A stretch of DNA of 64,000 bases from Ruminococcus sp. (GTDB taxonomy: Bacteria > Bacillota > Clostridia > Oscillospirales > Acutalibacteraceae), in NCBI GenBank assembly GCA_017410265.1, contig JAFQRC010000003.1:1-64000 (forward strand). Reading direction: 5' to 3'. Shown one piece after another: positions 11,132 to 31,328 of the stretch (its first letter is position 1; the number at the start of each line of letters is the position of its first letter). The notes beneath the pieces are model-generated. The model saw only the letters and a list, made by a program, of their open reading frames with translations. It had not been told where the DNA came from and did no database searches. A program made the translations under genes and the position numbers.

Positions 11132-11764
11132 CTATTCGTTTTGATTATCATCATCTTCCGAAGCCAGCTCTTCGGTAGATTTATTATTGTTATTTTCTTT
11201 TTCAGAATTATTTTCAGCATACTCAAGTTCATCTAGCGTCTTGTAAGATACAATAAGAGAAATAAGCTCGTATCCAAACAAAACGACGATTACAAGTATA
11301 AAGACTATCAAGCCGTATGGCTGAAGGAAGAATGTATAAACACTGTCGATAAAAGGAACTTTGCAGACAAACTCGCCCATAAGCTGATCTTCGTACCAAA
11401 GGGGGTCAGGAAGAGCTCCTTCAACGATTCCCTGTGATTCAAAGACATACTTCCCGTCAACCAGCTGAGGTTCTTCTATCATCTTATGTGTGATGAACTT
11501 ATCTGCGAAATCATCGACCTCGCCTTTATATGTAACTATATCGCCTTTGTGTATATCCTCGACATCAGCTTCTCTGACAAGAATGACATCGCCTATCATC
11601 AACTCAGGCTCCATACTTCCCGATGAAACGCGGAATATCTGGTAACCAAACACCGACGGTGCCTCTCCAGAAAGTCGGGCGTTGAACATCACGATAACGA
11701 CTGCAATTAAAATAACAAGCAAAATTGTGCCAAGAATGTTGAATACTTTTTTCAGTTTATTCAC
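11132..11764 (-). CDS. SipW-like (ER-type) signal peptidase I, first copy
   Basis: A 210-aa membrane peptidase. An N-terminal helix (about residues 10-28) is followed by the catalytic serine box SSGSMEPE (Ser50). A histidine stands where bacterial-type enzymes carry lysine (FITHKM, His93), so it belongs to the ER/SipW class. A second helix (about 148-172) and an acidic, Asn-rich cytoplasmic tail complete it. SipW of Bacillus releases TasA-type fibre proteins. Here the enzyme is the last gene of a run of SipW-type substrates, 9 bases after the preceding one. The start is GTG with AAGGTG upstream. A second, divergent copy lies at 27650-28429. Confidence 0.88.
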   Translation of the reverse strand: MNKLKKVFNILGTILLVILIAVVIVMFNARLSGEAPSVFGYQIFRVSSGSMEPELMIGDVILVREADVEDIHKGDIVTYKGEVDDFADKFITHKMIEEPQLVDGKYVFESQGIVEGALPDPLWYEDQLMGEFVCKVPFIDSVYTFFLQPYGLIVFILVIVVLFGYELISLIVSYKTLDELEYAENNSEKENNNNKSTEELASEDDDNQNE

Positions 11765-11773
11765 AGTAACACC

Positions 11774-12355
11774 TTAGCTGTACATCAGATAAACCTGTGA
11801 TGGGTTAAATGTTACTGAGCCTGCATCACATCTGACAAACCATTCTACTATAAGCTGTCCCGGATTCGCATCAGTTTTGATATTCTGAGGAACATAAGCA
11901 TTACGGATAATGTGAATATCAGTTTGTGCAGCAGAATAAGTTCTGCAGGAATTAGTAGGATAAGCAACACATATGCTTGCGCTAGAATTAGCAGCAGGAG
12001 TGAACGACGGTATAAACAGAGAAACAACAGTATCATAGTCTTCACTACTGTTAGTTATAACAGTTTTAAAATACGCATATCCCGGTGTTGATGTATCACC
12101 GGCTGTAGTAGCCGAAACGGTAACATTAGCATTAGCAACAGGAGAAGTTCCGTAAGTGGTTAATTTGTTACCTTTAGTTCCGCTATATGTGGCTATACTA
12201 CAGTTCTGTGCTCTTAATTTAGTATCGTCCTTAAACTCAAGTCCTATACCCTCTTTAACATCAGGTTCAAACCATGAGAAGGAAACGCTGGTCATACCGA
12301 TAACAACTATCAAAACAGCCATAAGTACACAAAGCACTGGTAATATTCTTTTCAT
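11774..12355 (-). CDS. Small secreted protein with SipW-type signal peptide
   Basis: A 193-aa protein. A basic start (MKRILP) and hydrophobic helix end in SVSFSWFEPD (residues 23-32), the [ST]-x-F-[AS]-W-F motif of SipW substrates such as TasA and camelysin. The mature part is beta-rich (AYFKTVITNSSEDYD, QLIVEWFVRCD, YLMYS) with four or five Cys. It resembles a short TasA-like domain and lacks the A-h-R-h and W-h-EG-x-D motifs of its larger neighbours. The SD GGAGG fits the ATG at 12355 better than a GTG three codons earlier. It lies directly upstream of the signal peptidase. Confidence 0.75.
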   Translation of the reverse strand: MKRILPVLCVLMAVLIVVIGMTSVSFSWFEPDVKEGIGLEFKDDTKLRAQNCSIATYSGTKGNKLTTYGTSPVANANVTVSATTAGDTSTPGYAYFKTVITNSSEDYDTVVSLFIPSFTPAANSSASICVAYPTNSCRTYSAAQTDIHIIRNAYVPQNIKTDANPGQLIVEWFVRCDAGSVTFNPSQVYLMYS

Positions 12356-12376
12356 GGTTTTCACCTCCAGTAAAAA

Positions 12377-15300
12377 TTAATAGTCAAAATCAATAAAGCT
12401 ACCTGTGATACCTTCACCTATAGCAGTCGCTTCAAAAACGATATTTCCTATCTCGTCAAATCCATCATTATTCGCAGGAATACCTACTCCAAGTGTTCCG
12501 TATGAATAAATCTCAGTAGAATCATCTACTCCATCAAAGTCATCATAATTATTGGAGAATGTGTTCTTGTTGGAAAGATAGAAGTTAACCTTACTCTGAG
12601 CATTCTGAGGAATAACAGCACGATAGTAATCGGTGTTACCTACTCTTTGCATAGTAACGAAAGTCTTGTTGTTATTACTATTGTCCATAAAGCAGGCACG
12701 GACATTGAACTTAGAAATATCAGAACCCGAGTGGTTATAGAAATATATAACTCTCTCGCCGTTATAGTTGTTAGTACCAAACAAAGTCTTCAATGTCGCT
12801 GTAGCTTTGTGGTTAGCTGAGTCAGATGCTTCAACTTTGAAGTACTTAACACCGTTGTTGATATAGTTTTCTAACAGGAAGCTATTTATATATGCTTCTA
12901 ATGAATCATATTCAGAAATAATAAAGCCTGTAGCCCTGCTAGGAGTGAGTTCTTCATAAGAATTCAGTTGATTAGAATCAGAAATGAAAAGTTTTGCTGC
13001 GTAATTAAGTACTCCACCTTTAACGATAAGGTCAAGCTGGATGTTATTAATTACGGATGATTTGTATATCTTCTGAAGTCCTGTGAAATCTACAATCTCA
13101 AAGCTCTCAACTCTGATGAGATAGTACTTAACAGTAGTTGACACATTAGACTTAACTTCCACTAAAGAATAGCTATAAGTATTCTCGGTTGGTGTGATGT
13201 AAAGCGTACCTTTATTAAACTCGTAGGTAATAGGGTTACCCGAAACGACTCTAGCAGTAAGTATATCGTCACCATAATAGCATGCGTATTCGAATGTAGC
13301 TGCCTCGTCTTTTACAGTAGTACCCTGCTGGATAGAAGTCGCTCTGTCCTTTGCAACATAGTCTGAATAAACAAACTTCCATTCAGTAAGAGTGCCATTA
13401 TTATTCCAGAACGCGTTATTCTCACTCGGCACAGCAGCCTGGTTTGTTTTCTGACTAGTGTTGGATTTATTGTAGAATGTCACATACTTTGCACTGAACG
13501 GAATATCAGCGTAGTAAACGCGCTGGTTCATATCGTTAGTATATTTGTATGTCATTACAATACTGTTGCTTGTAAGATTAGTGTCACCACTTGTTACAGA
13601 AGGGTGAACAGAAACATTGTTATCTCCCCAAGAAGCGTTATCTGTAAAGAAGATTCGGCGTGTACCGTATTCTGTGCCCTGTGTATCCTCATTAAAAGTA
13701 AACTTTGAATCAACAGTAATAGTAGCGGTAGCAGTGGAATCTTGGTAAATCCTGAATGTTGAACCATCAGTTGTGCCGATAGACGCATTGTTTACGAGGA
13801 CATTATTAAGTACAGCACTTGTGTGGTCAGGTTTAACATTAACCGTAAGCTGTGTACCATAGCCGACGGAATCGCCATTGAAGTAGTAGTTACCTAGGTT
13901 ATCAGTTACATAAACCGAACCATACTGTGGCTGAACCATATAAATCTTAGGATTCTCAACAAACTTAACGGTATAAGTCTTATTCTGCCCTGTAAGCACA
14001 ACGCTAAAGGTCGCTTTACCATCTGTACTGATTGTAGCGCTGACATTATTACCGCTGACTAAAGCGTAGCAATTCTCAGGCGGAGTGATAACAACCTCTG
14101 CAGTTGCACCGTAGTTGAGCGGTTTAGGTGTACCGAAAGCTACTGCAGAACCATCAATCGTCATCGAGCCACCTGTAGTAACAGAAGATGTATTATCAAC
14201 ATTAACGGTTACTGTCTTGTTAGCAGTGAGAGTAGCTGTAACAGCACCGACATTTGCGGTTACATTGTTCTTAGTACCTGTTGCTGTAGACGCAGATATA
14301 GCACCCATTGTAACACCTGACATAGTCTGAACATAGTAGCCTGTATTCGGTGTAACAGAGTAAGATATATTTGTACCGTAGTCAATATAATAAGTACCGG
14401 TTGTAGAAACCGTGGTCTCTAAACCTTCACTATAATACTTGAAACTGAATGACGAAGCATTTGTCGGCAACTTTGGCTGTGCATAAGGCTTAACCGCTAT
14501 GCTATACTCGATAGTAACATCGCCTTTAACATGTTCAAGGACTAATTCATCAGTCAAATTGCCATTTAAGTTATTGACGCTCCAGATAGTTGTGCCGTCG
14601 TCTACAGTGATATATTCAAAGTAGCGTGTATTAGTACGCGAAATTGAAAGTGTCAGCGGACTGTTAGATAAAATCTTGTTATTGGTTATAGTAGTACCGT
14701 CTGTCTTGAGAGTAACCGCTGTACTTGACAACGAGCCTTTATTAGTAACAGTGATATCATAGTAAACAGTACTTTGTGTAACTGTGACAATCTGAGAGGT
14801 TGAGTAAACAGTTTCACCTGTTTTAGTGTTAGTTGTCTTAACTCTGAAATAATATGTACCTGTAGTATTAGGTGTCCATGTTGAGCCGGTGATACCAGAG
14901 AAAGTACTGTTATCTGTGCTGACCTGATAAGTCTGAGTAATATAGGCCTTTTCAGCGTCAGCAACACCGTTTACATACGCACCTGATAAAGTCAAGGTGT
15001 CAGCGTCTGTGATTGAGTTTGAGCTTACGCTGAAACCGGTATTCGCAGCGTTTAAGTGACTGAACACCATATAATGAGCAGTTGAGCTGATATTATTCGT
15101 TGAATAATATCCTTCTGTGTATGCCTTAGCATATACTGTATACGACTGATCGACTCCCTTTGTTGAAAGTGAGGGACTGAATGTTTTAGTCGTAGAATAT
15201 GTACCATTTGAAGTTGTAGAATAATGAGCTGTTGCGCCAGTTACTACTGTTGCATTTGCAGTAAGAGTAAACCCACCATTTTCAAATACGATATACGGAT

Positions 15301-16585
15301 TTGATGAAGTACCAGTGCCATTTGTACCCGAAACCACATTAGAACCCGTTAATGTAAGAGCTGATGGCGCATTTGGTCTGAAGTAAGCTTTTACAGTAGC
15401 ACCGTTTGCTGTTGGTGTGAGTGTAGTAGAGGCAGATGTTGTTGAACCAATTGTAGCCTTTGTAAGACCGCTCCATGCAGCAAAGGTATAGCCAGTACTT
15501 GGTGTCGCTTCAATAGACACACTACTGCCAGCTTTTACTGAACCGCTAGTTGGAGAAACGGTACCTCCGTAGCCATGAGTAACTGTGTATGTGTACTTCT
15601 GTTCTTCAACTTTAACATAAATTGTGTTAGAAGTTTTATAAGACGATGAGTAATTCGAGGTAGAACCTTCATAACACCAAGCATAACCCGTATAGGTTGT
15701 AGTGCCCTCAGTAGTGCTTGCAGTGTATGATTTCGTATATGTATTGGAAGTGCCCGACGAAGCTTTAGACGAAGAGCTGTTGATATTCCAACCAAAACCT
15801 TCCATACCAGCGTCATCTTTTGTCGCAGTAAGTTTAATTGAAAACGATGCACCAGGACGAACGATATAAGGGTCAGCGTTGGTACCAGAACCGCTGACTG
15901 CATTTGTTACAGAAGCTGTGACAGATGATGGTGGAACTGCATAAATCTTTGAACTTCTACTTGTACCACCAGCTGTAAATCCATAATAACAGTTTGAAGT
16001 TTCAGAAAAAACAAGGTCACCGGTCTGATTCCAAATATTCTCGAAAGGACCACCAATTGCAGAGTTACGAGTGAAAATAACATTAGTATATGTACCTGCG
16101 TTAGTAACTTTCGCACGGTAAATAGCACCACTCGCACCGGCAGTACCTTCATACAGTTCAAATAAATACGAATGAGTTCCTGCGGTTCCCCCCCACATAT
16201 AAGCGTACGCATAAGAATTATTTAAAATCCATGTTGTTGAACCCCAGCCTGATGGAACAAAGTTTTGTAAATAGATATATTCACCAGATACATAAGTTCT
16301 TGTTGCAGCAGTAGTAGTAACATCAACATTAGCTTTTGTATCAGCTAAATCATTCTTGTTGTTCTGCTTCACAGCGACTGTCTGTATATCAGCAACGAGA
16401 GAGCCACTTTCCCCTGTGTTATCTGATACAAATGCAGAGAAGGTTGTTGAAACTAAACCTAAAATAAGCAGAACGAGTAAAGCGAACACAGTGATGTTAC
16501 GCTGTAATGCTAAAGCTTTCATTCGCTTTTTCTCTTTGATTTGTGCTTTGATTTGTGCCTTTGTAAGCTTTTTATTATGGCTCAT
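12377..16585 (-). CDS. Giant 1402-aa secreted protein with starch-binding-like and InlB-like repeat modules
   Basis: The N-terminus has a Lys-rich helix and a membrane segment ending TTFSAFVSD (residues 47-55), a SipW-type signal variant. A starch-binding-like module follows at about 100-202 (YIYLQNFVPSGW, AYAYMWGG, TNVIFTR, NIWNQTGDL). An InlB-type B-repeat is near 330-405 (GYGGTVSPTSG, STGYTFAAWSG) with further bacterial Ig/InlB-like repeats rich in Thr, Ser and Asn. Two more CBM26-like modules follow (IFFTDNASWGD near 975; VIYFYNHSGSD near 1270). There is no LPXTG, dockerin or cell-wall repeat, so the anchoring mode is unknown. Module limits are estimates. It is the largest product of the cluster and probably contacts substrate. 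Confidence 0.75.
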   Translation of the reverse strand: MSHNKKLTKAQIKAQIKEKKRMKALALQRNITVFALLVLLILGLVSTTFSAFVSDNTGESGSLVADIQTVAVKQNNKNDLADTKANVDVTTTAATRTYVSGEYIYLQNFVPSGWGSTTWILNNSYAYAYMWGGTAGTHSYLFELYEGTAGASGAIYRAKVTNAGTYTNVIFTRNSAIGGPFENIWNQTGDLVFSETSNCYYGFTAGGTSRSSKIYAVPPSSVTASVTNAVSGSGTNADPYIVRPGASFSIKLTATKDDAGMEGFGWNINSSSSKASSGTSNTYTKSYTASTTEGTTTYTGYAWCYEGSTSNYSSSYKTSNTIYVKVEEQKYTYTVTHGYGGTVSPTSGSVKAGSSVSIEATPSTGYTFAAWSGLTKATIGSTTSASTTLTPTANGATVKAYFRPNAPSALTLTGSNVVSGTNGTGTSSNPYIVFENGGFTLTANATVVTGATAHYSTTSNGTYSTTKTFSPSLSTKGVDQSYTVYAKAYTEGYYSTNNISSTAHYMVFSHLNAANTGFSVSSNSITDADTLTLSGAYVNGVADAEKAYITQTYQVSTDNSTFSGITGSTWTPNTTGTYYFRVKTTNTKTGETVYSTSQIVTVTQSTVYYDITVTNKGSLSSTAVTLKTDGTTITNNKILSNSPLTLSISRTNTRYFEYITVDDGTTIWSVNNLNGNLTDELVLEHVKGDVTIEYSIAVKPYAQPKLPTNASSFSFKYYSEGLETTVSTTGTYYIDYGTNISYSVTPNTGYYVQTMSGVTMGAISASTATGTKNNVTANVGAVTATLTANKTVTVNVDNTSSVTTGGSMTIDGSAVAFGTPKPLNYGATAEVVITPPENCYALVSGNNVSATISTDGKATFSVVLTGQNKTYTVKFVENPKIYMVQPQYGSVYVTDNLGNYYFNGDSVGYGTQLTVNVKPDHTSAVLNNVLVNNASIGTTDGSTFRIYQDSTATATITVDSKFTFNEDTQGTEYGTRRIFFTDNASWGDNNVSVHPSVTSGDTNLTSNSIVMTYKYTNDMNQRVYYADIPFSAKYVTFYNKSNTSQKTNQAAVPSENNAFWNNNGTLTEWKFVYSDYVAKDRATSIQQGTTVKDEAATFEYACYYGDDILTARVVSGNPITYEFNKGTLYITPTENTYSYSLVEVKSNVSTTVKYYLIRVESFEIVDFTGLQKIYKSSVINNIQLDLIVKGGVLNYAAKLFISDSNQLNSYEELTPSRATGFIISEYDSLEAYINSFLLENYINNGVKYFKVEASDSANHKATATLKTLFGTNNYNGERVIYFYNHSGSDISKFNVRACFMDNSNNNKTFVTMQRVGNTDYYRAVIPQNAQSKVNFYLSNKNTFSNNYDDFDGVDDSTEIYSYGTLGVGIPANNDGFDEIGNIVFEATAIGEGITGSFIDFDY

Positions 16586-16684: not shown

Positions 16685-18979
16685 TTATTCTGTGATGTTG
16701 AAGTAAATACCATTAGCTAAATCATGACCATATGTAAAAACAGCCTCGTTAACACCTGGTCCAGTATATGCTGTCCAACGGTAATTTATCGTAGTCACCG
16801 TTGAATCAAAATCATTTGTATACCAACGATAGTTGTCGAGTTCGTTCATTTCAAAATACGTTGTACCGCCGTCGACTGAATACTCAAGTTTTGAGTTTTC
16901 AACACTTGATAAAACATCATTTACTACATTATCTGCAGAGCCGTCAACAACAACTGCAATGTGCCACTGACCAAGTGAAGTCGTAGCAGCCATATCGGTA
17001 GCATAGAATATAGAGCTTCCGTTTCGTGCTACAGCAGCAGTACCAGAGTTCCATGTGCCAGCATTGCTTGTGCTTGTTAATCTACTAAATCGTTGGAAAG
17101 AAATATAATTACTAGTGGTTGTGCCACTATCTTTCGGAACAAAAGCACCCCAAGTAAGTGCGTTTTTATGTTTAGTCATATAATAGTAACGGCGTGTGCC
17201 ATTAATAATAGCGCTGACCTTATATCTCAAGTCTTTATTCATAGATGCATCTACAAGCTCGGTTGAGAACAGAATCTGCTCAGTTTGCATCCATGTTCCA
17301 ACGCCGGCAGCTTTTGACTGAGAACTAACTAAACCTGTACCCTCGTAACCGAGAGCAGTATAGATTTTCACATCATCGTCATAATATGATTCCGAGTTAG
17401 AAGCTGTCCACTGAACTTTAATTGTTGTATCAGTGTAAGAATCAGTAGATGTGAATGAGTAAATAGGAGTTTCGTTGTCTTCAAACACTTCAAAATAGCC
17501 TTTGAATGTATCAGTTGCTGCATCATAATACATACGAGTAGCTTTAGCTGAAGCGGTAGTAGAATCAGAGAGATAAAGCCTGTTTTGTGTAATCTCTCTG
17601 TTCTCTCCTGCCCTCGTTATAAACTGATAGCCGTATGCGTTATAGTCTTCGTCAGTCGCAGACGATGTCTGGTCTTTAAACTGGAATAATTCGATATCTG
17701 TATCATCCCATACACCGTAACCAACATTTCCTGTGTTATTCTTCAGCACACTTAAAGCTTTGAAGATATAAACATCACCGTCATTTACAGCAGGAGCAGT
17801 TATAGGCCATTTGTATTGCTCGTTTTTAACACCTGTGCCTGCGTTATATGTACCATAGAAGAAGTAGCCGTCAGCTGGATTTGTTGCAAGATGTTTTCTC
17901 ATATCGTCAGAGATACGAGGAGTTGCCTCTCCCTCATCAGATGCTGTAACCCAACGCGTCGCCTCCGTCTGAGAGTCAATCGTGGTCATAGGAACGACTG
18001 ATATAGTCGTGCCTTCCTTATAATAGAAGTAAAGGCTCTTTGTCTGATCTTCCTGAGTGACATGATGACCTTCAAAACCTTCTTTAGTGCTGAAGGTATA
18101 GTCATCAAAGAAGAAAGTCTGGAAGTTAGAAGCAGCGTTAACAAACTGGAGGTTGATTTTCACAGTACAGCCGAGAAGTGCAGTTTTCTGAGCTGCTGTA
18201 AGAGCTGCAAACTGTGCATCTTTCTCCTCGAACCAGATTTTGACATTAACTTTTGTATCATCGCCACCACCTGTTGTTGAGAACACAAACAAGTTGGCGT
18301 TTGTATTAGTCTGGTAATTATATTCACTACCATTAGAAAGTCCGGTTGAAGTTATACTTTTAGTACCTCCGGCTTTTGTATTAACAGCATTATATGTTTT
18401 CGAATCAATAGAGTAAATACGGGTATTTGAAGAAGTTGTACCAGCTGTTACTGAAACACGCATTGCCTTCTCAGCTATAACAAGCATCTCATCTGTGACA
18501 TCAGGATTATCGGATGTGACATCAAAGATATCAGCTTTATTGAAATAATAGTTATATGACTTAGCGGTTTCATTGTGAACCTGAAAGTCGATATTGTAAT
18601 AGCTGGTATTATAGTCAGTAGTATCGCCAAGACGATATGTAGCAGCTCCATCTTTCTTAAAATAGAAGTTCTTAGCATCAGGTGTTGAAGCCTGAGCCAG
18701 CTGATAAAGCGCTGTTGGTCTGAAATATGTGGAGAGATCCACCATATTTGTCGCACCATCTTTAACATCAAAGCGATAATTAATATTAGAATTAATAGGA
18801 AGGTCTTCACCTTTGATTTTAAGCGAGGATGATGACTCAATCCAACTGAATGTGGTAATACAAAGTAAAATAATACACTCAACAAGTGCCACGATAGAGA
18901 GTATTGAATTTTTATTTTTGCCTTTAAAAAGCTTTTCAGTAAGATTATAATTTCTGAGTTTATCTATAATAACTTTCAT
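16685..18979 (-). CDS. Secreted TasA-like domain protein, 764 aa
   Basis: A cytoplasmic basic tail, a membrane helix and the SipW motif TTFSWIESS (residues 42-50). The N-terminal 300 residues carry the domain shared within this cluster: YYNIDFQVHN, KAMRVSV, and KVNVKIWFEEKD as a degenerate form of the W-h-EG-x-D motif. The remaining 450 residues are beta-rich with repeated short strands and Thr/Ser turns (RLYLSDSTTA, NSKLEYSVDGGTTYF). No certain CBM could be delimited, although the C-terminal part resembles the sandwich modules of its neighbours. SD AAGGAGGTG. Cell-surface localisation is inferred from the signal. Confidence 0.7.
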   Translation of the reverse strand: MKVIIDKLRNYNLTEKLFKGKNKNSILSIVALVECIILLCITTFSWIESSSSLKIKGEDLPINSNINYRFDVKDGATNMVDLSTYFRPTALYQLAQASTPDAKNFYFKKDGAATYRLGDTTDYNTSYYNIDFQVHNETAKSYNYYFNKADIFDVTSDNPDVTDEMLVIAEKAMRVSVTAGTTSSNTRIYSIDSKTYNAVNTKAGGTKSITSTGLSNGSEYNYQTNTNANLFVFSTTGGGDDTKVNVKIWFEEKDAQFAALTAAQKTALLGCTVKINLQFVNAASNFQTFFFDDYTFSTKEGFEGHHVTQEDQTKSLYFYYKEGTTISVVPMTTIDSQTEATRWVTASDEGEATPRISDDMRKHLATNPADGYFFYGTYNAGTGVKNEQYKWPITAPAVNDGDVYIFKALSVLKNNTGNVGYGVWDDTDIELFQFKDQTSSATDEDYNAYGYQFITRAGENREITQNRLYLSDSTTASAKATRMYYDAATDTFKGYFEVFEDNETPIYSFTSTDSYTDTTIKVQWTASNSESYYDDDVKIYTALGYEGTGLVSSQSKAAGVGTWMQTEQILFSTELVDASMNKDLRYKVSAIINGTRRYYYMTKHKNALTWGAFVPKDSGTTTSNYISFQRFSRLTSTSNAGTWNSGTAAVARNGSSIFYATDMAATTSLGQWHIAVVVDGSADNVVNDVLSSVENSKLEYSVDGGTTYFEMNELDNYRWYTNDFDSTVTTINYRWTAYTGPGVNEAVFTYGHDLANGIYFNITE

Positions 18980-19012: not shown

Positions 19013-22000
19013 CTAGTTTGTACCAGCGGTACCATTAATATCCCAATATTCAGCCTCGTAAAGAGCAACGTTCATTGTTTCATTATCTTTAAGACCGCCT
19101 GAGATAGTGCTCTGTTTGGTTGCACTCGTGCTTTGGCTGGAAGAACTGCGATATGTCAGACCGTTACGATCCAGACCTACACCGCCGATACCTTTAATAT
19201 CACCGGTTTTATACCCCTTGTCGGAGTTACTGAAAATAACCGCATTATATCGAGATATATCCATAATAACTTTGTACAAGCTGTAACCAGAAGCACCAGC
19301 ACTATGATAAGTCATCACACCACCAGGATATTCTCCGTTACCATTACCATTTGAACCTACATCATCCCAGATATAACACTTAGGGTCACTTCCGTATCCA
19401 CAGAAATCAGTAGACAATTCTAAGAACAAAGTAATCTGGAAATTTTCAATTGAGCAGATATTCTTGCCTACAGTGTTCGAGTACGCATTATTTGTAGAAG
19501 TAGTCGTATCAACAGTCTGCAGTGGCGTTACATCCCATTTATCGTTATGATTACCCGGATTCACTCGTTCTACACGATACTTATAATAACTTCTATTAGA
19601 TGGTACTACGCAAGCGTAGCCGTAACCACCATCGCCCGGAGCATAGTAATTGTTTTTATACAGGTATGTATAGAAGTCATTAGAATTATCAGTACCACTG
19701 CTGTTAGCGTAGAAATGAACCTGCATAAACGCGTTGTCCATTTTTGATTTCGCTATATTCTTAACCTGTACATAGAGCATATCGGAACCCCAATAGCTCC
19801 ACTTGTTACCATCTGAGTCTTCAGTAATCTCATAGAATTTACCATTACAAACTCCTGCATTCCAACTCATATGATATGTAAGCTCATTTTTGTCGGAATT
19901 GAGAGCGTACTTGCCATTAAAGTTGAAGTAACGTTTAAATGTAATCTGATTTTCAGTATTATGGTTAGTACCATCCTTAGAATAAACATTATATGGTACG
20001 AGGAAGTAGTACATACTTTTATCGGCAGCACCTGAGGCTTTATACTCAATTGTCTGAGTAGCTCCGTTAGAATACTTATAGAGGTAATTCATCGTAAGAA
20101 CAGAAGTTGTGCCATCTTTATCAGAATTTTTTATCCACTGACCATTAGTACCATCGTATACGGTGACAGCGTGCAATTCATGATCACCCCAAAGACCACC
20201 ACATGATTTAGCGGGAGCTCCGGTGTAATTTGATCCATCTTCGTTCTTTGCGGTTGTCGGAGCACCGTCAGAAATAGCAGTGAAATAAACAACGCTATCA
20301 ACAACAGCCTCGCTAATACCACTGAATCCGTTAGTGTCCCAATAGTTCCATACTTCGTCTTCTTTCATCGGGTTAACTCGTCGGAACATAATGTGCTCAG
20401 AATTGATGAGGTCTACAGGAGCTCGACACTGCCAGATAGTAGGTTTACCCTCTTCGTCATCATGAACACTCATAAGATAACCTTTATGATTTTCAGCATC
20501 ATAGAGCTGGATAACAGGATTGAACGATACACCTGTATCGGTTGTAACCTTGTCATCAATCCAGTTTTCTTTAGTTTTATCAAGGAACTGATAAGTGTAC
20601 ATCTCCTCACCCACAGAGTCAGGAGTAGCAAATACGAGGTTCATGTCAATGTATTTGCCGGCATAAACATCCTCTGTACAGTCAGGATCAGTACCCTCAA
20701 GCCAGATAATCAAAGATAGCGGCAAAGTCTGACCTGCTTCAATAGTAAACAACGGGTTATTCGAACCATTGTTATAGTCATCTATAGAAGATGCAAAAGC
20801 CGGAATAACGACTTTTGAATCACCTGAATTATCATCGATTTGAATGACAGGTGCGTAAGGACGCTGGAAACCAGTTGATACACCCGGTGAAATAACAGGA
20901 TATGTACCGCCTTCAACAGTGCCAATATAATTTTCCTGTTCCCAACCATACTCGTTATCGCCGGTTGGAGAGCCAATCATATAGATATAGCCATCTTTTA
21001 CAGGATAAATATCACCTGTCTTGACGGCACCACCCTCAGAATTTCCATCGTTGAAGATGATGGAATCATATTTTGAGTTGAAAGTGTAGTAGTAAACAGA
21101 ACCGGAGATGTGAGTCATTGGCTTACCTGGCCAAGCTGAAAGTGATTCATCGTTGTTTCCGTTTTCACGCCAGATATATGCATGTGGTTGTTCCCAGCCG
21201 AGAGTATTGTTGAAATAAACTGTTGTGTAGTTTTCGTCATCAGGAGTAGTAGGAGCCTCAGTAGAGGGTTCTGTACCTGTATTTGAACCACTGCCGTCAA
21301 CCTTAGTACCGCCTTCAATTTCAATGTTTTCTAAAGCCCACGTACCATTACGACCTTCTTCTAGTTTATAAACTCCCAGATCGTAAACATCTAGGTCAAC
21401 AGTCTGGTTTTGATCTCCGTGATAGCTAAAGATAACTTTGTTGCAAGCTGTACTATATGTATACGAAAAAAGACCCGTAGTTGAATCATAAGTCATAACT
21501 ACACCTGGGAAGCTACCATTATTAGTTGTATCTCCCCACACATATGCTCTAACTTGACCTACATCAGTCCAATCAGAAGGAGCGTCAAGATACACCGTAT
21601 ATGTACCGCCAACAGTACCACCATCTTCCGTAGGAGCTTCAGTTGGTTCATCAGTAGGCTCTTCTCCCTCATACTCCTGAGAAAGAAGTGATGAAGTGAT
21701 TTTACCTGATGAGCCATCGTTCTGGTAAAAAGCCATACGGATAGCCTTCGAGTTGACTTCGACATTTGTTTCCGGATCGTAAAGCTTGAAGTAAGATTTA
21801 GAGCTGAGGTAAACAGGCATATCTTCAACACCTGTGTTAGTAAGAGTGAAGTCTACGTTGATATACTTTGAGTTCATATCATTAACAGTAGCTTCACGGA
21901 ACTTAATGTCAGAAGTGTTAATACTATTGAAGGTTCCGGTAGTAGGAATAAAAAGATTGCGGCCATCAAGAGAAGTAACAGGCTCAAACTGGAACTCGTT

Positions 22001-22234: not shown

Positions 22235-22272
22235 CATAAATCTCCTAAAAACAGAATGAACGAAAAATAAAC

Positions 22273-23346
22273 TTATGCACCTGCTAAATCAAAGTTAACC
22301 TGGAACTGTCCGCCGGCAATAGCACGGCGAGCTTCAGCGTCGCAGCCCTCAATCCAGATGTTAACCTGTGTTTTGCCGTAATAGTATCCATTTGATTCAT
22401 AAGTTACATCACAGATAGCATCACGGCTAGGGTCAGTCACTGTGCCAATGTAGTTTATATCAATGCCAGTATAACCTCCAGATTCACCAATATTTTCATC
22501 ATAAACATACGAAAAATAATGATGAGTATAGGTGTCACATTGGCTGTTCATACTTTTATCATTAGTGAAGGTATCAATTATTTGATTAGGCTGAACATTT
22601 TGAGAGAGTGTCCACGGATTTAAAGAAGCATTAGTTGTAGAATTCAGGTGGATATCAGGACGAGGTAACCAAAGAAGACGAGCACTATCAGAAAGATTAT
22701 CATGATCTTCGCCTTCAATAAACTGGCTGTAGTTTACAAAAGAAACTCTGACAGCACCAACAACTGCGTCTTTAGAGAAATCACCCTCCGAAGCTTTTCT
22801 GTTATCCCCTGTGTCTTCAGTCTGGATAAGATTACCGTCGCCAGGTGTCTCTTCTATTGCACCTTTAACAAAGGAGCCGCTATCAAGGAAAACTCGACAT
22901 GGATCCTCTGCCTTAAAATACATATCAAAACAAATGTATTCCTTATTAGGCGAAACAGACGTGAAAGTTCCGACATTTCGGTCGATGTCAGTGTTTTTTG
23001 GAAGCATAGACGGACGAACAAGAGTTACACCATCACCTGTGATATCAATAGGGCTGAAATCATGAAGAACATCATAATGAGTCCCTTCAGCAGTGATAAT
23101 GTCACGAAGATTCATATTCTTGGAATACTGTGACATAGTGTACTGATAGCCGTTGACAGATGATTCAAATCCAACAGCCATCTCAAAATATTCAGAACCA
23201 CTGGCTTGTATAATAAGACCATCGGCGTTTACCGGTTTATCAGTAGGAGCAAACCAAGCAAGTGATGCTGCAAAAACCATTACAATTAAAGCGAGCAATA
23301 ACATGATGGCTTTGATAATCAGAGATGTGTTCTGCTTCGACTTCAT
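22273..23346 (-). CDS. Secreted TasA-like protein, 357 aa
   Basis: The signal helix ends in ASLAWFAPTD (residues 27-36), a SipW-type motif. The mature part has the shared beta domain: EYICFDMYFKAED, GAVRVSFVNYS, and near the C-terminus VNIWIEGCDAEA followed by FQVNFDLAGA. The protein stops right after this domain, so it is a single-domain family member and a candidate fibre subunit. AAAGGAG precedes the ATG. It lies 30 bases after the coiled-coil protein gene and 38 bases before the CBM26-bearing gene. Confidence 0.75.
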   Translation of the reverse strand: MKSKQNTSLIIKAIMLLLALIVMVFAASLAWFAPTDKPVNADGLIIQASGSEYFEMAVGFESSVNGYQYTMSQYSKNMNLRDIITAEGTHYDVLHDFSPIDITGDGVTLVRPSMLPKNTDIDRNVGTFTSVSPNKEYICFDMYFKAEDPCRVFLDSGSFVKGAIEETPGDGNLIQTEDTGDNRKASEGDFSKDAVVGAVRVSFVNYSQFIEGEDHDNLSDSARLLWLPRPDIHLNSTTNASLNPWTLSQNVQPNQIIDTFTNDKSMNSQCDTYTHHYFSYVYDENIGESGGYTGIDINYIGTVTDPSRDAICDVTYESNGYYYGKTQVNIWIEGCDAEARRAIAGGQFQVNFDLAGA

Positions 23347-23376: not shown

Positions 23377-25767
23377 TTAGTCAAGGTAATCCTCGATATT
23401 TTCAAGTTCAAGAATCTTCTCAGGTTTATAGTCGAGTAAGAGAGCCGCTTTCTTAGCGAAAGCTTTAGCTTTCTTCTTGGCTTTCTTGAGATTCTTGTTA
23501 TATTTATCTTCGATTTCTTTAGTAGCAGCTTTAAGCTTAGCTTCATACTTCTGCTGATCAGTGAAGCCTTTAGCAACAGCAATTTCGCCGTCCTTAGCCT
23601 TAAGCTTAGCTTCGTATTCAGCTTTTAATGCTGAAAGCTTCTTTTCGAAATCGGAATTGAGCTTAGCAACCGCTTTCTCACTATTCTTTTCAGCGTTCTT
23701 CATCGCTTTGTCTTTATTAGAAAGCTCTTTGTCCTTTGCTTTCAGATTAGCGATGTGGGTGCTGACAGTTTTGTTAAGCTCATTATACTCAGAACGGGAT
23801 TTAGTGAGTTCGTCCTGAAGTTTATTAGTCTTTTCGTTGTTTTTCTCGATTAAACTATCGCGTTCAACAACCTTAGCTTTTTCTTTAACAAAATCACTCT
23901 TTAGTGTTTTGTAGTCACCTTCTAAGGTAGAAAGCTGAGTAGAAAGATTAGCAATCTGCCCGTTAGCAGTGTCAATCTGAGAAGCCTTTTCTTCGATGTC
24001 AGCCTGCTGTGTAGCAATAGTATTCTCTTGCTGAGAAACAGTTGACTTCAGGTCAGCGTTCTCATTAGTCAGGGTGCTGTTGGCATCTCGAAGTTCAGCA
24101 ACACTTGTATTGAGAATAACAATCTGGGAAGCCTGCTCTTCGATAGTTTTAGCTTGTTTTTCAGTTAAATCCTCAAGTTCAGCAATACGAGCTTTGTGCT
24201 CTTCTATCTCAGCATTAAGGTCACGAATAGTGGTTTCGAGAACAGAAATCTTATCGTTGAGGAAGTCGATATGAGCTTCGAGTTCAGCAATCTTAGCCTT
24301 ACAAGCTTCAACTTCAGCCTGAAGCTGAGCAACCTGAGCTTCAAGTTCAGCAATTTTTGCGTTTAATGTATCAATAAGAGCGTTGAGTTCGACAATCTTA
24401 GCTTCAAGAGCTGCAATTGTAGCAGCCTGAGCAGCGATAGTCTGCTTCTGCTCTTCTACGATGCCTTCGAGTTCAGCGATTCTAGCTTTGCAAACTTCGA
24501 GTTCAGCCTCGAGTTCAGCAACTCTCTGCTGAGCAACTCTGAGTTCTTCTCTGGTTTCTTCAAGTTCTTGCTCTCTGACTTTGAGGAGAGTTTCGAGTTC
24601 TTTGATTCTTAAGTCTTTCTGTCTGACTTTTTCCTTTTCCTGGTCAAGTTCAGCAGTGAGCTGTGCGATAAGTAAATCACGCTCACGAACTTCTTTGAGC
24701 CTTATTGCCATCTCTTCGCGTCGAGCTTCGTAAATCTGCTCTTCAAGCCACTTAGCTTTTTCTTCTTCAGGCTTGTTAGCTTCGGCAGCTCTGCGTTCAT
24801 TTTCAGCGACATAGTCAGCATGGAGCTTATCCTTGAGCGCTTTGTTAGTAGAAATAGTCATAACAAAGTGCTGGAATGCCATTACATCGTAAAGTTCTGA
24901 CTGGGTATCAGCGTCCATTTCGCCGGAGAACTCGTTTGACTCTACAACATAACCGGTCTTACGATAAGCCTCTATAAAAGACCATAACTCATTACATTTT
25001 GAGAAGTTAGGGTTCTTTTTGATACAGTTTGTTTTGTTAATAGGAGAACGAACCTGAATACAACCTTTGAGTGACTGAATGAGGTTTGTGTTAACAAAGT
25101 CATCAAGCATCATACGAATACGAGTAATACGCTCGTAGTCGGTGAGGTTAGAAATATCCTCTTCCTTATCGACCTTATCACGGTCGTGGGATTCAGAAGC
25201 ATAAGTGAGGTTGAACGCAAACATCTGGTTGTTGAGGTTAGCATAACGCTTCATCTCAACACTAGTATAGGAATCGTTCGGGGCTTCTTTCAGCGCACGA
25301 AATCTCGCTTCAACGAAAGAAATAGTTTTAAAAATAAGTGTGTATAAAAATCTGTTTTCATATGTAGCGTAGCTATCTTCACGGTGAGTGTTCAGAAGCT
25401 TTGACGGAGAAACAGAACCGTCAGGGTCCACAGCCTGAATAAGGCTGGTGTGCTGAGTAAGGTGACGAACAGCTTCTTTAGTTACCTGCTTAACCTTATC
25501 AACACGGTCAACTTCTTCATATGTTTCGATAAATCTACGCTCTTCGCGGATGGCTTTATCCATATAAGGCAGAGTTTCTTCAATCTTCTCTACCCACTCC
25601 ATATCGATAACTCGGTTGTAAGCGTTACCGGCTAAGATATCTTTACCAGCATCTGCGTCTTTGAGAGCTCCTGTCAAATATCCTTTTGTAAAGTCCCCTT
25701 CGAGCGTCTGCTTCATTTCAGCATATGCTCTGTAGTATCTACTGTAATCTAACAAGGAACTCACCAT
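23377..25767 (-). CDS. DUF2357/McrC-like protein with long C-terminal coiled coil
   Basis: A 796-aa cytoplasmic protein. Residues 1-315 are globular and carry a stretch resembling DUF2357 (McrC-related) proteins: VRHLTQHTSLI, then THREDSYATYENRF (127-140), and LWSFIEAYRKTGY. Residues about 325-745 are almost continuous heptads (repeated AELEAxxxxCKAKIAELE-type units), and a Lys-rich tail ends at EDYLD. Most DUF2357/McrC proteins end in a PD-(D/E)xK nuclease; none is visible, so the nuclease seems replaced by the coiled coil. It starts 26 bases after the McrB-like AAA+ gene, its expected partner. The start is uncertain: AAAGG abuts this ATG, and a TTG four codons on is possible. The DUF2357 match is by eye. 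Confidence 0.65.
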   Translation of the reverse strand: MVSSLLDYSRYYRAYAEMKQTLEGDFTKGYLTGALKDADAGKDILAGNAYNRVIDMEWVEKIEETLPYMDKAIREERRFIETYEEVDRVDKVKQVTKEAVRHLTQHTSLIQAVDPDGSVSPSKLLNTHREDSYATYENRFLYTLIFKTISFVEARFRALKEAPNDSYTSVEMKRYANLNNQMFAFNLTYASESHDRDKVDKEEDISNLTDYERITRIRMMLDDFVNTNLIQSLKGCIQVRSPINKTNCIKKNPNFSKCNELWSFIEAYRKTGYVVESNEFSGEMDADTQSELYDVMAFQHFVMTISTNKALKDKLHADYVAENERRAAEANKPEEEKAKWLEEQIYEARREEMAIRLKEVRERDLLIAQLTAELDQEKEKVRQKDLRIKELETLLKVREQELEETREELRVAQQRVAELEAELEVCKARIAELEGIVEEQKQTIAAQAATIAALEAKIVELNALIDTLNAKIAELEAQVAQLQAEVEACKAKIAELEAHIDFLNDKISVLETTIRDLNAEIEEHKARIAELEDLTEKQAKTIEEQASQIVILNTSVAELRDANSTLTNENADLKSTVSQQENTIATQQADIEEKASQIDTANGQIANLSTQLSTLEGDYKTLKSDFVKEKAKVVERDSLIEKNNEKTNKLQDELTKSRSEYNELNKTVSTHIANLKAKDKELSNKDKAMKNAEKNSEKAVAKLNSDFEKKLSALKAEYEAKLKAKDGEIAVAKGFTDQQKYEAKLKAATKEIEDKYNKNLKKAKKKAKAFAKKAALLLDYKPEKILELENIEDYLD

Positions 25768-25793: not shown

Positions 25794-27326
25794 TTACATC
25801 ATCTTCTGAAGCATACGAACATATTCTTTACATTCATTCATATTCTCTCTACCGAAGAGCTGGTCGAGCTGCTGAACAAGACCGTCGATCTCGTCACGGA
25901 TGTAAGAAATATTAAGTGCTTCAAACTTTCTGAATACCTTTTTAGCAAGGCAGTAGTCGATACCGTCAACCTCAGTACCACCGCAACCAACATAAGCAGG
26001 AACGAAGTCCTTCATCTGCTTCATAACACGGTTACCGAAAGCTACACGGAAGTGCTCGATTACGTAGTCGTCAAGAATTTCAATCTTCTTGAGGTTTTCT
26101 TCAGAAATCGGGTTAGCCTCAACAGCGTCAGCAAGGAGCTTTGTGAGGTGTTTGTAGTTAATAAAGATAGGCTCTGTATCAGGAGCTTCGAACGGCTTAC
26201 CCTTTGTATTGATATCGATAGGCAGAGCACGGTCGTAAACCTTATCTGTGATAGCAAAAGTAGAGTCGTCGTTGTTAGCAGTACCAACATACCAGATGTT
26301 GTCAGGAACAGTGATTTTACCGTTATCAAAGTGTGCAGGGTCATCAGGCCATGGAGCTGATACAAGCTCAATAATCCACTCGTCGTGAGCTGGCATTTCG
26401 AGGATTGACAGCATCTCAGCGAAGTAGTACTCGACACGAGCGATGTTCATTTCGTCGAGGATTACTACATAAACATTTTCATTATATGACGCTTCATAAA
26501 GTGCACGGAGAAGTTCGGTTTCGTTGTACTTCTTTGTAAATTCGTTGAAGTAACCGAAAAGCTCAGTACGGTCACGCCATGAAGGCTGAACTGAAGCGAT
26601 AACTGCAGGGTTCTGAACAAACTTACCAAATGCGTATGGAAGAGATGTTTTACCAGTACCGGAAATACCCTGAAGGATAATCAGACGGGTTGAAGCGAAA
26701 CCTGCGATAAAGCAACGGAGAATCTTGATATCATAGAAGAGTCTGAGTCTTGAGCAAGCGAAGTTTCTGAATCTGTCACAGAACTCAGGAAGAGTAACAT
26801 CCCAGTCGTACTGTGGTGGCTGATAATCTGCCCACTCGTTATCAATAGCAATAAGCTTGTTGAAACGACCACCCTTGATTTCTTCTTCGCCGTTGTTGAG
26901 TGCTTCCATCTCCTCGCCTGTAAGCTCGGAAATTTCATTTGGATTAAGACCGATCTGAGAAACCTTCATAGAAAGAATCTTGTCTTTCTCGAGGTTCATA
27001 CGCATAACTTCTTTATTTAAAGCGTTAACTTCATTAACAAGGTCATTAGTGTCCTTGACCTTCTTCTTGAACTTAACGAACTTTTTAACCCACATTACGA
27101 TAAAGAAGACAATGAGGCCGAGTACTGCTGCGAGAAGAATGATAGCGATAATCGCAATTACCCACGCAAGACCTCCTAAAGTTGTGGTATAGTTCTCGAT
27201 AATCTTGACATATTCAGAGAAATTGAACATGCCTACGATTCCCTTAGCAACGCCAACGATAGCGCCCCAGATAGAACCGAAGAACTGACCTAAAAAGTCA
27301 AATAAGAATTTAAAGATGGTATCCAT
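25794..27326 (-). CDS. Membrane-anchored McrB-like AAA+ ATPase
   Basis: 510 aa. An amphipathic N-terminus, a transmembrane segment at about 50-80 and a short coiled coil (90-120) precede the AAA+ domain. Walker A is GISGTGKTS (220-228). SVQPSWRDRTELFGYFN is the McrB/MoxR-clade substrate-side motif. Walker B is VVILDEMN (287-294), sensor 1 is GTANNDD (348-354), and VYDRA (363-367) holds the arginine finger. McrB proteins form hexamers activated by McrC; this one is tethered to the membrane and followed by a McrC-like coiled-coil gene. Its position inside a run of exported-protein genes suggests a role in their export, assembly or positioning. That role is inference. AAAGGAG precedes the ATG. 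Confidence 0.8.
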   Translation of the reverse strand: MDTIFKFLFDFLGQFFGSIWGAIVGVAKGIVGMFNFSEYVKIIENYTTTLGGLAWVIAIIAIILLAAVLGLIVFFIVMWVKKFVKFKKKVKDTNDLVNEVNALNKEVMRMNLEKDKILSMKVSQIGLNPNEISELTGEEMEALNNGEEEIKGGRFNKLIAIDNEWADYQPPQYDWDVTLPEFCDRFRNFACSRLRLFYDIKILRCFIAGFASTRLIILQGISGTGKTSLPYAFGKFVQNPAVIASVQPSWRDRTELFGYFNEFTKKYNETELLRALYEASYNENVYVVILDEMNIARVEYYFAEMLSILEMPAHDEWIIELVSAPWPDDPAHFDNGKITVPDNIWYVGTANNDDSTFAITDKVYDRALPIDINTKGKPFEAPDTEPIFINYKHLTKLLADAVEANPISEENLKKIEILDDYVIEHFRVAFGNRVMKQMKDFVPAYVGCGGTEVDGIDYCLAKKVFRKFEALNISYIRDEIDGLVQQLDQLFGRENMNECKEYVRMLQKMM

Positions 27327-27649: not shown

Positions 27650-28429
27650 TTATACTTCCTCTTCGGAAGGTGCATCGCTTTGTGATGCCTGAGCATTTTT
27701 TTGTGCCATAAACTGCTTGAACTGCTCGTATTCTTCAGCAGACATCTGAGGAGTATCAGGAGCATTTTTCTCCTTTTCTTCCTGTTCTTTAGCCTTTTTG
27801 TACTCAACAAAGTTGATAACAACCTTGATAAGAACATAAAGGAAGAAGATAATCATTGGTAAAAGAATGCAAAGGAAGAAGCCAAGCTGTGAGTTGATAA
27901 ACTCGTAAACTTTACCTACACCTGCTATCTTTACACCCTGAAAGTCGCTTGTATAGTATTTAGCGACGATAGAATAAGCTGTGATGTACTCCCCTACTTC
28001 ATTCTGATCAGGGAGCATTGAAACAGAGCGATTATCACCCTGAGTCTGGTAAACGATTTCACCGTCACGCTCCTGAACATCTACGATTCTATGGCAGATA
28101 AGCTGTTCACCGAGGTGGTCGTTACCCTGAAGTATCCCCTTGAAAGTGATGATATCGCCCTCTTTATAGGTTTCAGGTGTATCGGTAGTATCGTTTTTTG
28201 TAATTTTGCCGATGATGACATCACCTTTTTTGAAATCGCCACCATCATATTCATCACTACCACCGTCCATAGAATCAGACATAACAACCTGAACAGTGTA
28301 GCCGAAAACATTAGAAATACCGGAGGATTTAGAAGTAAGAGCAAGAACAGCAACAAGTAAGGATACAACTAAAACAAGAACTATTAAAATGTTAATTACA
28401 GTGTTTAATATACTCTTAAATACTTTCAT
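27650..28429 (-). CDS. SipW-like (ER-type) signal peptidase I, second copy
   Basis: A 259-aa membrane peptidase with an N-terminal helix (about 8-32), the catalytic serine in MSDSMDGG (Ser53), and a histidine as general base in LICHRIVDV (His113). QTQGDNRSVSM is the conserved box near the active-site fold. A second helix (about 180-207) and a long charged tail follow. Compared with the copy at 11132, the serine box is VMSDSM instead of SSGSMEP and the inserted loop is longer, so the two may cleave different subsets. It lies between the major-subunit candidate and the AAA+ gene. SD AGGAG. Confidence 0.87.
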   Translation of the reverse strand: MKVFKSILNTVINILIVLVLVVSLLVAVLALTSKSSGISNVFGYTVQVVMSDSMDGGSDEYDGGDFKKGDVIIGKITKNDTTDTPETYKEGDIITFKGILQGNDHLGEQLICHRIVDVQERDGEIVYQTQGDNRSVSMLPDQNEVGEYITAYSIVAKYYTSDFQGVKIAGVGKVYEFINSQLGFFLCILLPMIIFFLYVLIKVVINFVEYKKAKEQEEKEKNAPDTPQMSAEEYEQFKQFMAQKNAQASQSDAPSEEEV

Positions 28430-28488: not shown

Positions 28489-28527
28489 ACGAACAACATT
28501 TAGTTAATAATTTTCAATCGTGAAAAA

Positions 28528-29432: not shown

Positions 29433-29502
29433 GATAAATACCAAAAGAAGCGTCCGAGTACCGGAGCCTTTTGATTTTCAAAGCGACCGCAACCACGCGT
29501 TA

Positions 29503-29530
29503 AAAATCAAAGATATTTCTCTTTGATTTT
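29503..29530 (-). terminator. AT-rich hairpin with competing partner upstream of the major-subunit candidate
   Basis: An 11-bp stem (AAAATCAAAGA/TCTTTGATTTT) with a 6-base loop. Its AAAATCAA arm can also pair with TTGATTTT at 29471-29478, so two structures exclude each other. It may end transcripts of the upstream gene partially, or act as an attenuator in the 269-base gap 29344-29612. I see no gene in that gap. Confidence 0.35.
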
Positions 29531-29612
29531 AGCAAGTGGTTAAGGAGCAGTAGAAAATCAGAAGAGCAGCGCAGGTAAACGAGGCGTGACATCGCCGTGC
29601 ACAGCACCAATT

Positions 29613-30467
29613 TTAAATCTCTTCACCATCAATATTGAAGAGCCACTGCATCTTAACATAACCGCCCATAATATCGTTAATGCACTCAGGGTCGTTACCT
29701 TCAATCCAAGTAACGATAGTGTACTTGATAGTTTCGTTAGGAGCGATGTCTTCTGTGAGATCATTCAAGATGATGTAGTCTTCAAGGTTCAAATCGTCAG
29801 CACCTTCAACGAATTCGAAGTTGACGATTTCTTCAAGCTGGCTGTTGTCACGATTCTTCTGAGCGTAGATGGTAGGCTCACCGTTTCTGTAAATCATAAT
29901 ACGGAGCGCCTCGTCTGCGTTCTTAGCGATACCTGTGAACTTCAGTGTGCTCTCAAGATCAAGAGTTTCTTTACCATTATTAGTAAGATAGAATGTATAA
30001 GCAAGGTAGTTTTCGCCGTTGTGCTCGCCGTCAGCCTCAGTATCAAGATTAGTCGGGAGCCAGTCATATGTAATATTGGTAACCTCTGTTACATTCTGAG
30101 CTGAAAGCTGAAGTACAGGGTCTTTAGCTGAGCCGTCTTCGTTAAGTGACTCGCTGATGATAATACCCTCTCTTGCTGCGCCGTTTTCGACAGAAATTAC
30201 GAGGTCACCGATAGTAGTCAAAAGCCAGGAGATAATCCACAGAATGATGAGAATTAAAATAGCGATAACAAGTGTTACACCAGCTCTGCGTTTCCATCTA
30301 ACAGTACGACCGATATCCTTACTGTCACGACGAGCCATGAATCTGTCGAAGATGGTCATGTTGCGGGCTTTGTCAACCGCGATATCACCTTTATCTTCGA
30401 GCTTCTTTAACTGTTCAGGAGAGAAAGGCTCGTCAGTATTCACTTTTTTCTTAGAAAACAATGGCAT
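29613..30467 (-). CDS. Membrane-retained TasA-like family member, 284 aa
   Basis: A 60-residue charged cytoplasmic tail (MPLFSKKK, then RRDSK, RWKRR) precedes a membrane helix at about 62-85. The extracellular domain has AYTFYLTNNGKETLD, EALRIMIYRNG and TIVTWIEGNDPEC, ending FNIDGEEI. The helix is not followed by the T-F-A-W-F cleavage motif of its relatives, so the protein is probably not released and could be the basal anchor of a surface structure. GGAGGTGG precedes the ATG at 30467; a TTG five codons earlier is rejected. Second gene of the cluster, 42 bases after the first. Confidence 0.72.
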   Translation of the reverse strand: MPLFSKKKVNTDEPFSPEQLKKLEDKGDIAVDKARNMTIFDRFMARRDSKDIGRTVRWKRRAGVTLVIAILILIILWIISWLLTTIGDLVISVENGAAREGIIISESLNEDGSAKDPVLQLSAQNVTEVTNITYDWLPTNLDTEADGEHNGENYLAYTFYLTNNGKETLDLESTLKFTGIAKNADEALRIMIYRNGEPTIYAQKNRDNSQLEEIVNFEFVEGADDLNLEDYIILNDLTEDIAPNETIKYTIVTWIEGNDPECINDIMGGYVKMQWLFNIDGEEI

Positions 30468-30509
30468 CAAAGCCACCTCCAAAACTATCTATATGTTATG
30501 TATAGGAAA

Positions 30510-31328
30510 TTAAGCAAATGGTGCGTTGTTCTCGTCTGTGCCTGAGAAGAGAAGACGAACGGTCAGGTTAGCACGCTGAACATCGTCGTCACACTGAGGG
30601 TCGTTACCCTCTGCCCAAACGCGGATTGTAACCTTCTTTGGTTCAAGCTCGTTTAAGAAGAAAAGACGAGTGTCATTTGTGTAGTTCATAGGAACTGCTA
30701 AATCGAAGGTTGTCTGACCATTTACTGCGGAGCCAACCTTATTAGGCTCGAAAATCGCAGCAGGTGTAGCACCCTCTTCTTCAAAGCCTACGCGTATAGC
30801 CTGAACAACTTCAGCCCTGAGTCCTGTCTCTGTAGTACTAACAGCTGTGCCTTCAAAATCATTGATATCATCTGAAGAAAGATGAACCCACATATCCTTT
30901 GAAGCGATAAAGTAACAATCAAATTCGAGGAAAGAACCTCTACCTGCAACTCTGGTCGCTCCATGCTCACCCTCGAAAGTAATACCGTTTCGTGTAGTAA
31001 CAGGGTCTAAGAGCTGTTCAGCTAGAGTGTAGTTACCGTTAGCCCTGAGATATGAGTTTATCATCTCGTTAGTGATGGTCTTCTTATATAGCTCGATATC
31101 AGAACCGTGGTTTTCCATATCTACTCTAAGCTCAACGCCGGTAGTAATATCCATCTGGATATTCTCTACACTTGCAAAGCTATTGAGTGTAAACCACGCC
31201 AGAGTTGAAGTAATGAGCACCAAGAGTGCAATAACGCAGAGCATAAAAGTTGTCTTGCGTTTTATTCTAGCCTGGGCTTTGTTAAGTTTTTCGATTTCCA
31301 ACAGGAGCTGCTGTTGATTTTTATCCAT
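30510..31328 (-). CDS. TasA-like SipW substrate, first gene of the cluster, 272 aa
   Basis: It starts MDKNQQQ with a 26-residue amphipathic cytoplasmic tail, then a membrane helix ending STLAWFTLNS (residues 41-50), a SipW-type motif. The extracellular domain shows FLEFDCYFIAS, QAIRVGFEEEG, FFLNELEPKKVTI and RVWAEGNDPQC, followed by LTVRLLFSG. The shared motif pair is therefore complete and the protein ends soon after. It is a candidate minor pilin-like or nucleating subunit. The leader of about 115 nt runs from the promoter at 31450-31478. GGTGA precedes the chosen ATG; a start four codons upstream is possible. Confidence 0.75.
   Translation of the reverse strand: MDKNQQQLLLEIEKLNKAQARIKRKTTFMLCVIALLVLITSTLAWFTLNSFASVENIQMDITTGVELRVDMENHGSDIELYKKTITNEMINSYLRANGNYTLAEQLLDPVTTRNGITFEGEHGATRVAGRGSFLEFDCYFIASKDMWVHLSSDDINDFEGTAVSTTETGLRAEVVQAIRVGFEEEGATPAAIFEPNKVGSAVNGQTTFDLAVPMNYTNDTRLFFLNELEPKKVTIRVWAEGNDPQCDDDVQRANLTVRLLFSGTDENNAPFA

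Follow-up and report, generated by a model that had tools for sequence, protein, structure and literature searches.

We describe a cluster of twelve genes in a 64,000-nt stretch of DNA from a Ruminococcus sp. (contig JAFQRC010000003.1; "the window", whose positions serve as coordinates throughout), and propose, with moderate confidence for the explanation as a whole, that it encodes a CoCoPALM-type system dedicated to TasA-like surface fibers, in which a membrane nucleoside triphosphatase (NTPase) descended from McrB is paired with a nuclease-less coiled-coil derivative of McrC. CoCoPALM is an McrBC-derived class that receives two sentences in the main text of Bell et al., 2024 (eLife 94800, PMC11090510), where it is left uncharacterized. 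An earlier sequence-only reading of this DNA had listed two SipW-type signal peptidases, seven substrates with SipW-type signal peptides, one uncleaved relative, an McrB-like NTPase and a coiled-coil protein (here recognized by its DUF2357 domain) on the minus strand, and all of these were confirmed, each of the twelve genes being assigned to a class.

Organization of the cluster

The twelve consecutive open reading frames (ORFs) lie on the minus strand over 11132-31340 and are transcribed in the order Sub276, Memb289, Sub271, SipB, AAA510, CC796, Sub357, Sub1074, Sub764, Sub1402, SubA196, SipA. Intergenic gaps are 9-99 bp, with the exception of 323 bp between AAA510 and SipB and 197 bp between the genes of 289 and 295 amino acids (aa), and a 10-bp stem with a T-tract (11126-11102) stands directly 3' of the last gene, SipA. 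Sub276 could start at 31340 (276 aa) instead of 31328 (272 aa), and Sub271, named as a 271-aa ORF, has 295 aa counted from its first start codon. The features are:

11102-11126, minus strand: terminator-like hairpin with T-tract
11132-11764, minus strand: SipA, SipW/ER-type signal peptidase, 210 aa, with catalytic motifs SGSMEP and THKM
11774-12364, minus strand: SubA196, secreted protein with SipW-type signal peptide (VSFSWF)
12377-16585, minus strand: Sub1402, large secreted protein; signal peptide of SipW type (TTFSAF), divergent InlB B-repeat domain
16685-18979, minus strand: Sub764, secreted protein; signal peptide of SipW type (TTFSWI); Flg_new/InlB-B repeats in its homologs, CBM26 in a few of them
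19013-22237, minus strand: Sub1074, secreted TasA-like-domain protein (STFAWF; IWLEGTDPDC) with CBM26 starch-binding modules
21038-21220, minus strand: best CBM26 module of Sub1074, residues 340-400
22273-23346, minus strand: Sub357, secreted TasA-like protein (ASLAWF; IWIEGCD)
23377-25767, minus strand: CC796, McrC-like protein with N-terminal DUF2357, a coiled coil of about 400 residues and a basic tail
25258-25533, minus strand: DUF2357 match in CC796, residues 79-170
25794-27326, minus strand: AAA510, McrB-like membrane NTPase with Walker A GISGTGKTS, Walker B LDEMNIARVEYYF, NxD-type NNDDST..KVYDRA and a helix at residues 59-77
26265-26276, minus strand: NxD(D) GTPase signature NNDD of AAA510
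27096-27152, minus strand: predicted membrane helix of AAA510
27650-28429, minus strand: SipB, second SipW-type signal peptidase, 259 aa
28528-29415, minus strand: Sub271, small secreted TasA-like protein (ATFAWF; VWLDGEDDLC) with a fast-evolving mature part
29613-30482, minus strand: Memb289, membrane-anchored uncleaved relative (C-terminal WIEGNDPEC), the likely fiber base
30510-31340, minus strand: Sub276, secreted TasA-like protein (STLAWF; VWAEGNDPQC) with a weak TapA (YqxM) match and a model resembling TasA

Linkage of the NTPase to SipW genes

Relatives of AAA510 were collected from the genus, family, order and class, and those scoring at least 560 bits formed a linkage set of 69 loci (about 68 distinct, L043 and L145 apparently being one contig; loci and genomes are cited by L and G codes). 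A DUF2357 partner was adjacent in all 69, a SipW gene lay on the same strand within 5 kb in 67, and a Memb289 homolog was found in 58; in the two SipW-less loci the contig ends 1090 and 238 bp upstream. These loci cover at least 14 families and several orders within one class, and the named relatives come mostly from herbivore rumen and gut. Below 560 bits there were ten divergent or truncated hits, including one truncated copy from the genus, and none of them had a SipW neighbor, nor did any of the 20 phylum-level McrB homologs examined. The sequence-only reading had asked for such a co-occurrence check on chance linkage, and the result supports coupling of the genes; a chance neighborhood is thereby rejected.

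Within the genus, hand counts over 35 genomes gave 24 with both NTPase and SipW, eight with neither, three with SipW only and none with the NTPase only (Fisher's test, 7e-6, not corrected for relatedness); the window's own genome falls outside or inside the 24 depending on G014, in which SipB is adjacent and the score is low. Over 247 genomes of the order, SipW was present in 25 of the 28 that hold any NTPase of the family vs. 64 of the 219 that hold none, and the three SipW-less genomes with an NTPase contain divergent or fragmentary copies only. In close species the cluster stays beside the same opposite-strand gene of 294-311 aa, and this stable position, together with the linkage, led us to reject a mobile defense island. 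In a tree that holds no published CoCoPALM reference sequences, the SipW-linked NTPases can form one group with moderate support (74/74), beside a small SipW-less type.

That second type, at L163, L164, L236 and L237 (G146, G101, G974 and G978), has a membrane AAA protein, DUF2357 and a second membrane AAA protein, and appears to represent another kind of membrane McrBC system; some of its loci adjoin a large protein of 1292-1341 aa, with terminal membrane segments in L163. A further variant of the SipW-linked system was seen at L228-L231 (family f204), where three or four SipW-type genes lie by one NTPase with different small neighbors. At L061/L084 (G023:C8) the NTPase gene is split over two frames (217 + 347 aa) by a frameshift, an assembly error or decay to a pseudogene.

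The NTPase, its partner and the CoCoPALM class

The family profile of AAA510 had one significant sequence match in the PDB, E. coli McrB (6hz4, 3e-8), and Walker A, Walker B and NNDDST..KVYDRA are invariant in the family alignment. The form NNDD[ST]T..KVYDRA occurs in all 31 SipW-linked copies. Taken alone NNDD could equally be read as NxxD; its register matches NMDETT..KVLDRA of the 20 phylum-level homologs and so fits the NxD branch as set out in the main text of Bell et al., 2024. Near residue 60, all 31 SipW-linked NTPases have a strong predicted membrane helix, which was absent from all 20 phylum-level McrB homologs.

DUF2357 is the N-terminal domain of McrC, the activator of McrB. It was matched in all 14 members of the CC796 family (best 1.9e-14), the window copy scoring 28.3 bits against a Pfam cut-off of 23.3, while a PDB sequence search with this region returned nothing. 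Past DUF2357, CC796 is a coiled coil of about 400 residues with almost no glycine or proline and a mostly basic end. No nuclease family, PD-(D/E)xK included, was among the matches listed for it, in agreement with the earlier reading, which had set the cluster against nuclease-bearing McrBC loci, and no nuclease, HEPN or methyltransferase family was found among the cluster genes scanned.

As outlined in the main text of Bell et al., 2024, CoCoPALM joins an NxD McrB-like domain with a membrane/coiled-coil part to a DUF2357 McrC-like coiled-coil partner and adjoining signal-peptidase genes. Of these, the cluster has an McrB-like NTPase, NxD followed by D/E, an McrC homolog with DUF2357 and coiled coil, and an association with signal peptidases. 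Of the FtsB-like part, the membrane helix is clear in all copies; FtsB homology was not reproduced in Pfam, where the AAA510 N-terminus matched neither FtsB nor DivIC. We consider it very likely that this is a CoCoPALM-type system serving the SipW-exported proteins. It has the McrB-like NTPase, the DUF2357 partner and coiled coils in common with CoCoNuT and McrBC restriction systems, but those contain a nuclease and have no SipW, and a membrane helix was absent from the 20 homologs examined.

The claim that no described system joins SipW-type secretion to an McrBC-like motor must accordingly be withdrawn, as CoCoPALM had already been named in the two sentences cited above and multi-substrate SipW loci are known (C. 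perfringens sipW-bsaABCRSD). Our literature search found no later CoCoPALM follow-up beyond the 2024 paper and its preprint. The main-text account of the class is without fiber subunits, SipW type, TasA fold, CBM26 cargo, two peptidases, EAL partner or linkage statistics. What is new here is the likely substrates (TasA-type donor-strand subunits), their fast-evolving cargo, CBM26 in about half of the genus members, the pair of peptidases and, in sister families, an EAL protein with degenerate motifs.

Exported proteins and their probable TasA-like fold

SipA matched TIGR02228 above the cut-off (81.8 bits); SipB fell below it (46.2 bits) and matched the SipW family NF046067 at 6e-25. The genome has exactly these two SipW/ER-type peptidase genes, a third weak match being a 153-aa ORF far under the cut-off. 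SipW-type signal peptides, a hydrophobic stretch followed by a motif such as STFAWF, were present in 7 of the 12 cluster ORFs and in no other long ORF of the window (35 examined). A C-terminal motif, W[ILAF]EGxDxxC or something close to it (such as VWAEGNDPQC, TWIEGNDPEC and IWLEGTDPDC), is common to six of the eight proteins that are exported or anchored, and W[IL]EGxDxxC recurs in relatives of the substrates. Memb289 has this C-terminal motif, lacks the cleavage motif and carries a 67-residue cytosolic tail; the tail of the Sub276 precursor is about 30 residues. We considered such tails as unusually conserved handles for the motor and rejected the idea, as those of Sub276 and Memb289 are no more conserved than the ectodomains. 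In Sub271 the signal peptide is about 91% conserved and the mature part 45%. Between close species the NTPase is 93-97% identical and the cargo 39-71% (Sub1402 84% in one).

A model of Sub276 (predicted local distance difference test, pLDDT, 66) placed the TasA fiber 8aur first of 994 re-aligned PDB chains (139 residues, root mean square deviation 3.9), with a Z of 6.1 that is within the range reached by unrelated folds. Other near matches were TasA 5of1, Sulfolobus threads 7pnb, Pyrobaculum bundling pili 7ueg and donor-strand pilins; a viral structure library gave no match. By sequence, Sub276 matched the TapA (YqxM) family weakly (5.6e-4, under the cut-off), and a PDB sequence search with it returned nothing. 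This fold evidence, weak but independent, sides with the earlier suggestion of a TasA-like surface fiber, and we consider it likely that the SipW-exported proteins form such fibers. The substrates lie outside the TasA sequence family and appear to work like TasA, which polymerizes by donor-strand exchange (PMC9674648).

The B. subtilis TasA/TapA/SipW operon and B. cereus CalY share with the cluster a SipW-type peptidase, signal peptides in which an aromatic residue follows the cleavage point, and a probable TasA-like jelly roll, but the B. subtilis operon has one peptidase, two substrates and no NTPase, and shows no Pfam-level sequence match to our substrates. In C. perfringens, sipW-bsaABCRSD likewise combines several secreted proteins with SipW, and BsaA forms filaments; that locus has a single peptidase and a two-component system in place of the NTPase (PMC7395162).

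Sub1074 contains CBM26 (E 1e-26, three stretches), the only family it matched. The earlier proposal of a starch-binding display holds in that CBM26 occurs in this protein and in 16 of the 30 Sub1074 family members scanned (genus and closest kin), but not as a property of the system, for which it is a frequent cargo in the genus. Sub764 homologs have InlB-type repeats, four of them with CBM26. The Ruminococcus bromii amylosome also uses CBM26 modules for starch binding (PMC5814915), but it docks through cohesins, whereas Sub1074 had no dockerin or cohesin match and would reach the surface by the SipW-type route. As a side observation, the window's genome (G000, <2 Mb) has 39 CBM26 and 77 dockerin matches, as in amylosome-bearing ruminococci, and from these matches it looks like an amylosome-type starch degrader.

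Proposed mechanism and alternatives

Starting from the tool-derived gene content, families, motifs, linkage and conservation, we infer the fold-based assembly of fibers, the anchor role and the target of the motor in the following scheme. Precursors with SipW-type signal peptides would be exported by Sec, and SipB and SipA would cut T-x-A|W/A-F sites, which are poor substrates for ordinary signal peptidase. Cleavage would free an N-terminal strand, through which subunits would join by donor-strand exchange. Sub276 and Sub271 would be the core subunits, the uncleaved Memb289 would anchor the fiber base, and Sub1074, Sub764 and Sub1402 would be the displayed cargo, here starch-binding. On the cytoplasmic side an NTPase ring with its DUF2357 stalk might spend NTP on gating, clustering or pulling its targets (precursors, peptidases or the base), such that fibers are built at a defined site. 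A direct role of the NTPase in driving or gating export or assembly has, in our estimate, a little under an even chance. The fuller idea, that the McrB membrane ring and DUF2357/coiled-coil stalk power or order donor-strand assembly, giving a first energized TasA-type fiber with interchangeable cargo such as starch-binding modules, is tentative and on balance doubtful.

Several observations weigh against this explanation. The Sub276 fold score is of the ambiguous size given above, both models are modest (pLDDT 66 and 61), and the substrates scanned matched no TasA family in Pfam/NCBIfam at E up to 1. With the DUF2357-region model (pLDDT 61) Foldseek and VIA-align returned unrelated helical matches and no McrC. 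Many genomes of the order (the 64/219) have SipW and no NTPase, so SipW systems exist without the motor; the motor without SipW was not found. Bacillus TasA (PMC9674648) and C. perfringens BsaA (PMC7395162) fibers form without any described NTPase, and a motor is therefore not needed for such fibers in general.

This last point suits a different role for the pair, in which fibers self-assemble and the NTPase and its partner act as a scaffold that places secretion at a pole or the septum and draws in mRNA, ribosomes or the nucleoid by way of the coiled coil and basic tail. The long, nearly glycine- and proline-free coiled coil of CC796 with its mostly basic end speaks for it, as does the membrane helix with a short coiled coil, termed FtsB-like for CoCoPALM in the main text of Bell et al., 2024. 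However, all NTP-binding and hydrolysis motifs are invariant, suggesting active cycling, and we regard a scaffold as improbable.

A part in defense seems more unlikely still. The pair would sense phage nucleic acid like CoCoNuTs, and an inducible SipW-exported coat would block adsorption or confine infected cells; although the NTPase is most closely related to McrBC/CoCoNuT restriction systems and the surface cargo evolves fast, the genes scanned lack nuclease, HEPN and methyltransferase families, the stable place by the opposite-strand gene and the spread over many families are unlike typical mobile defense islands, and the CBM26 cargo and EAL neighbors point to adhesion or matrix. Equally unlikely is quality control, with the NTPase extracting stalled precursors or residual signal peptides from the membrane so that SipW keeps working, for which the long cytosolic tails and the conserved Sub271 signal peptide would argue, but the tails of Sub276 and Memb289 are not specially conserved and SipW systems elsewhere manage without an NTPase.

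Neighboring genes

Sister families carry a single-domain EAL protein ahead of Memb289 (at L067, L147, L149, L151, L152, L154, L156, L157 and L158) and often a GGDEF-EAL protein after SipA; neither was seen at loci of the window's genus. In the single-domain proteins neither the glutamate of EAL nor the DDFG motif of the full-length enzymes is present, and judged on these residues they may therefore be sensors of cyclic di-GMP (c-di-GMP) rather than enzymes. With these neighbors, c-di-GMP control of the system is possible. Rfam found no riboswitch within the cluster, and its only two matches elsewhere in the window were a tRNA gene (32690-32775, plus strand) and 6S RNA (59466-59651, plus strand).

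Significance

The clustering of NTPase and SipW genes in a Ruminococcus-type bacterium and many relatives suggests that restriction machinery has been recycled for building cell-surface fibers. An uncharacterized McrBC-derived class thereby gains concrete probable substrates and a testable function, and an NTPase of DNA restriction would have been taken into the service of the cell surface in many families of Clostridia from gut and rumen. Should the fiber prove to be energized, the NTPase of a restriction system would be the energy source of a surface organelle. For Ruminococcus, the cluster suggests a route of starch adhesion beside the cohesin-dockerin amylosome.

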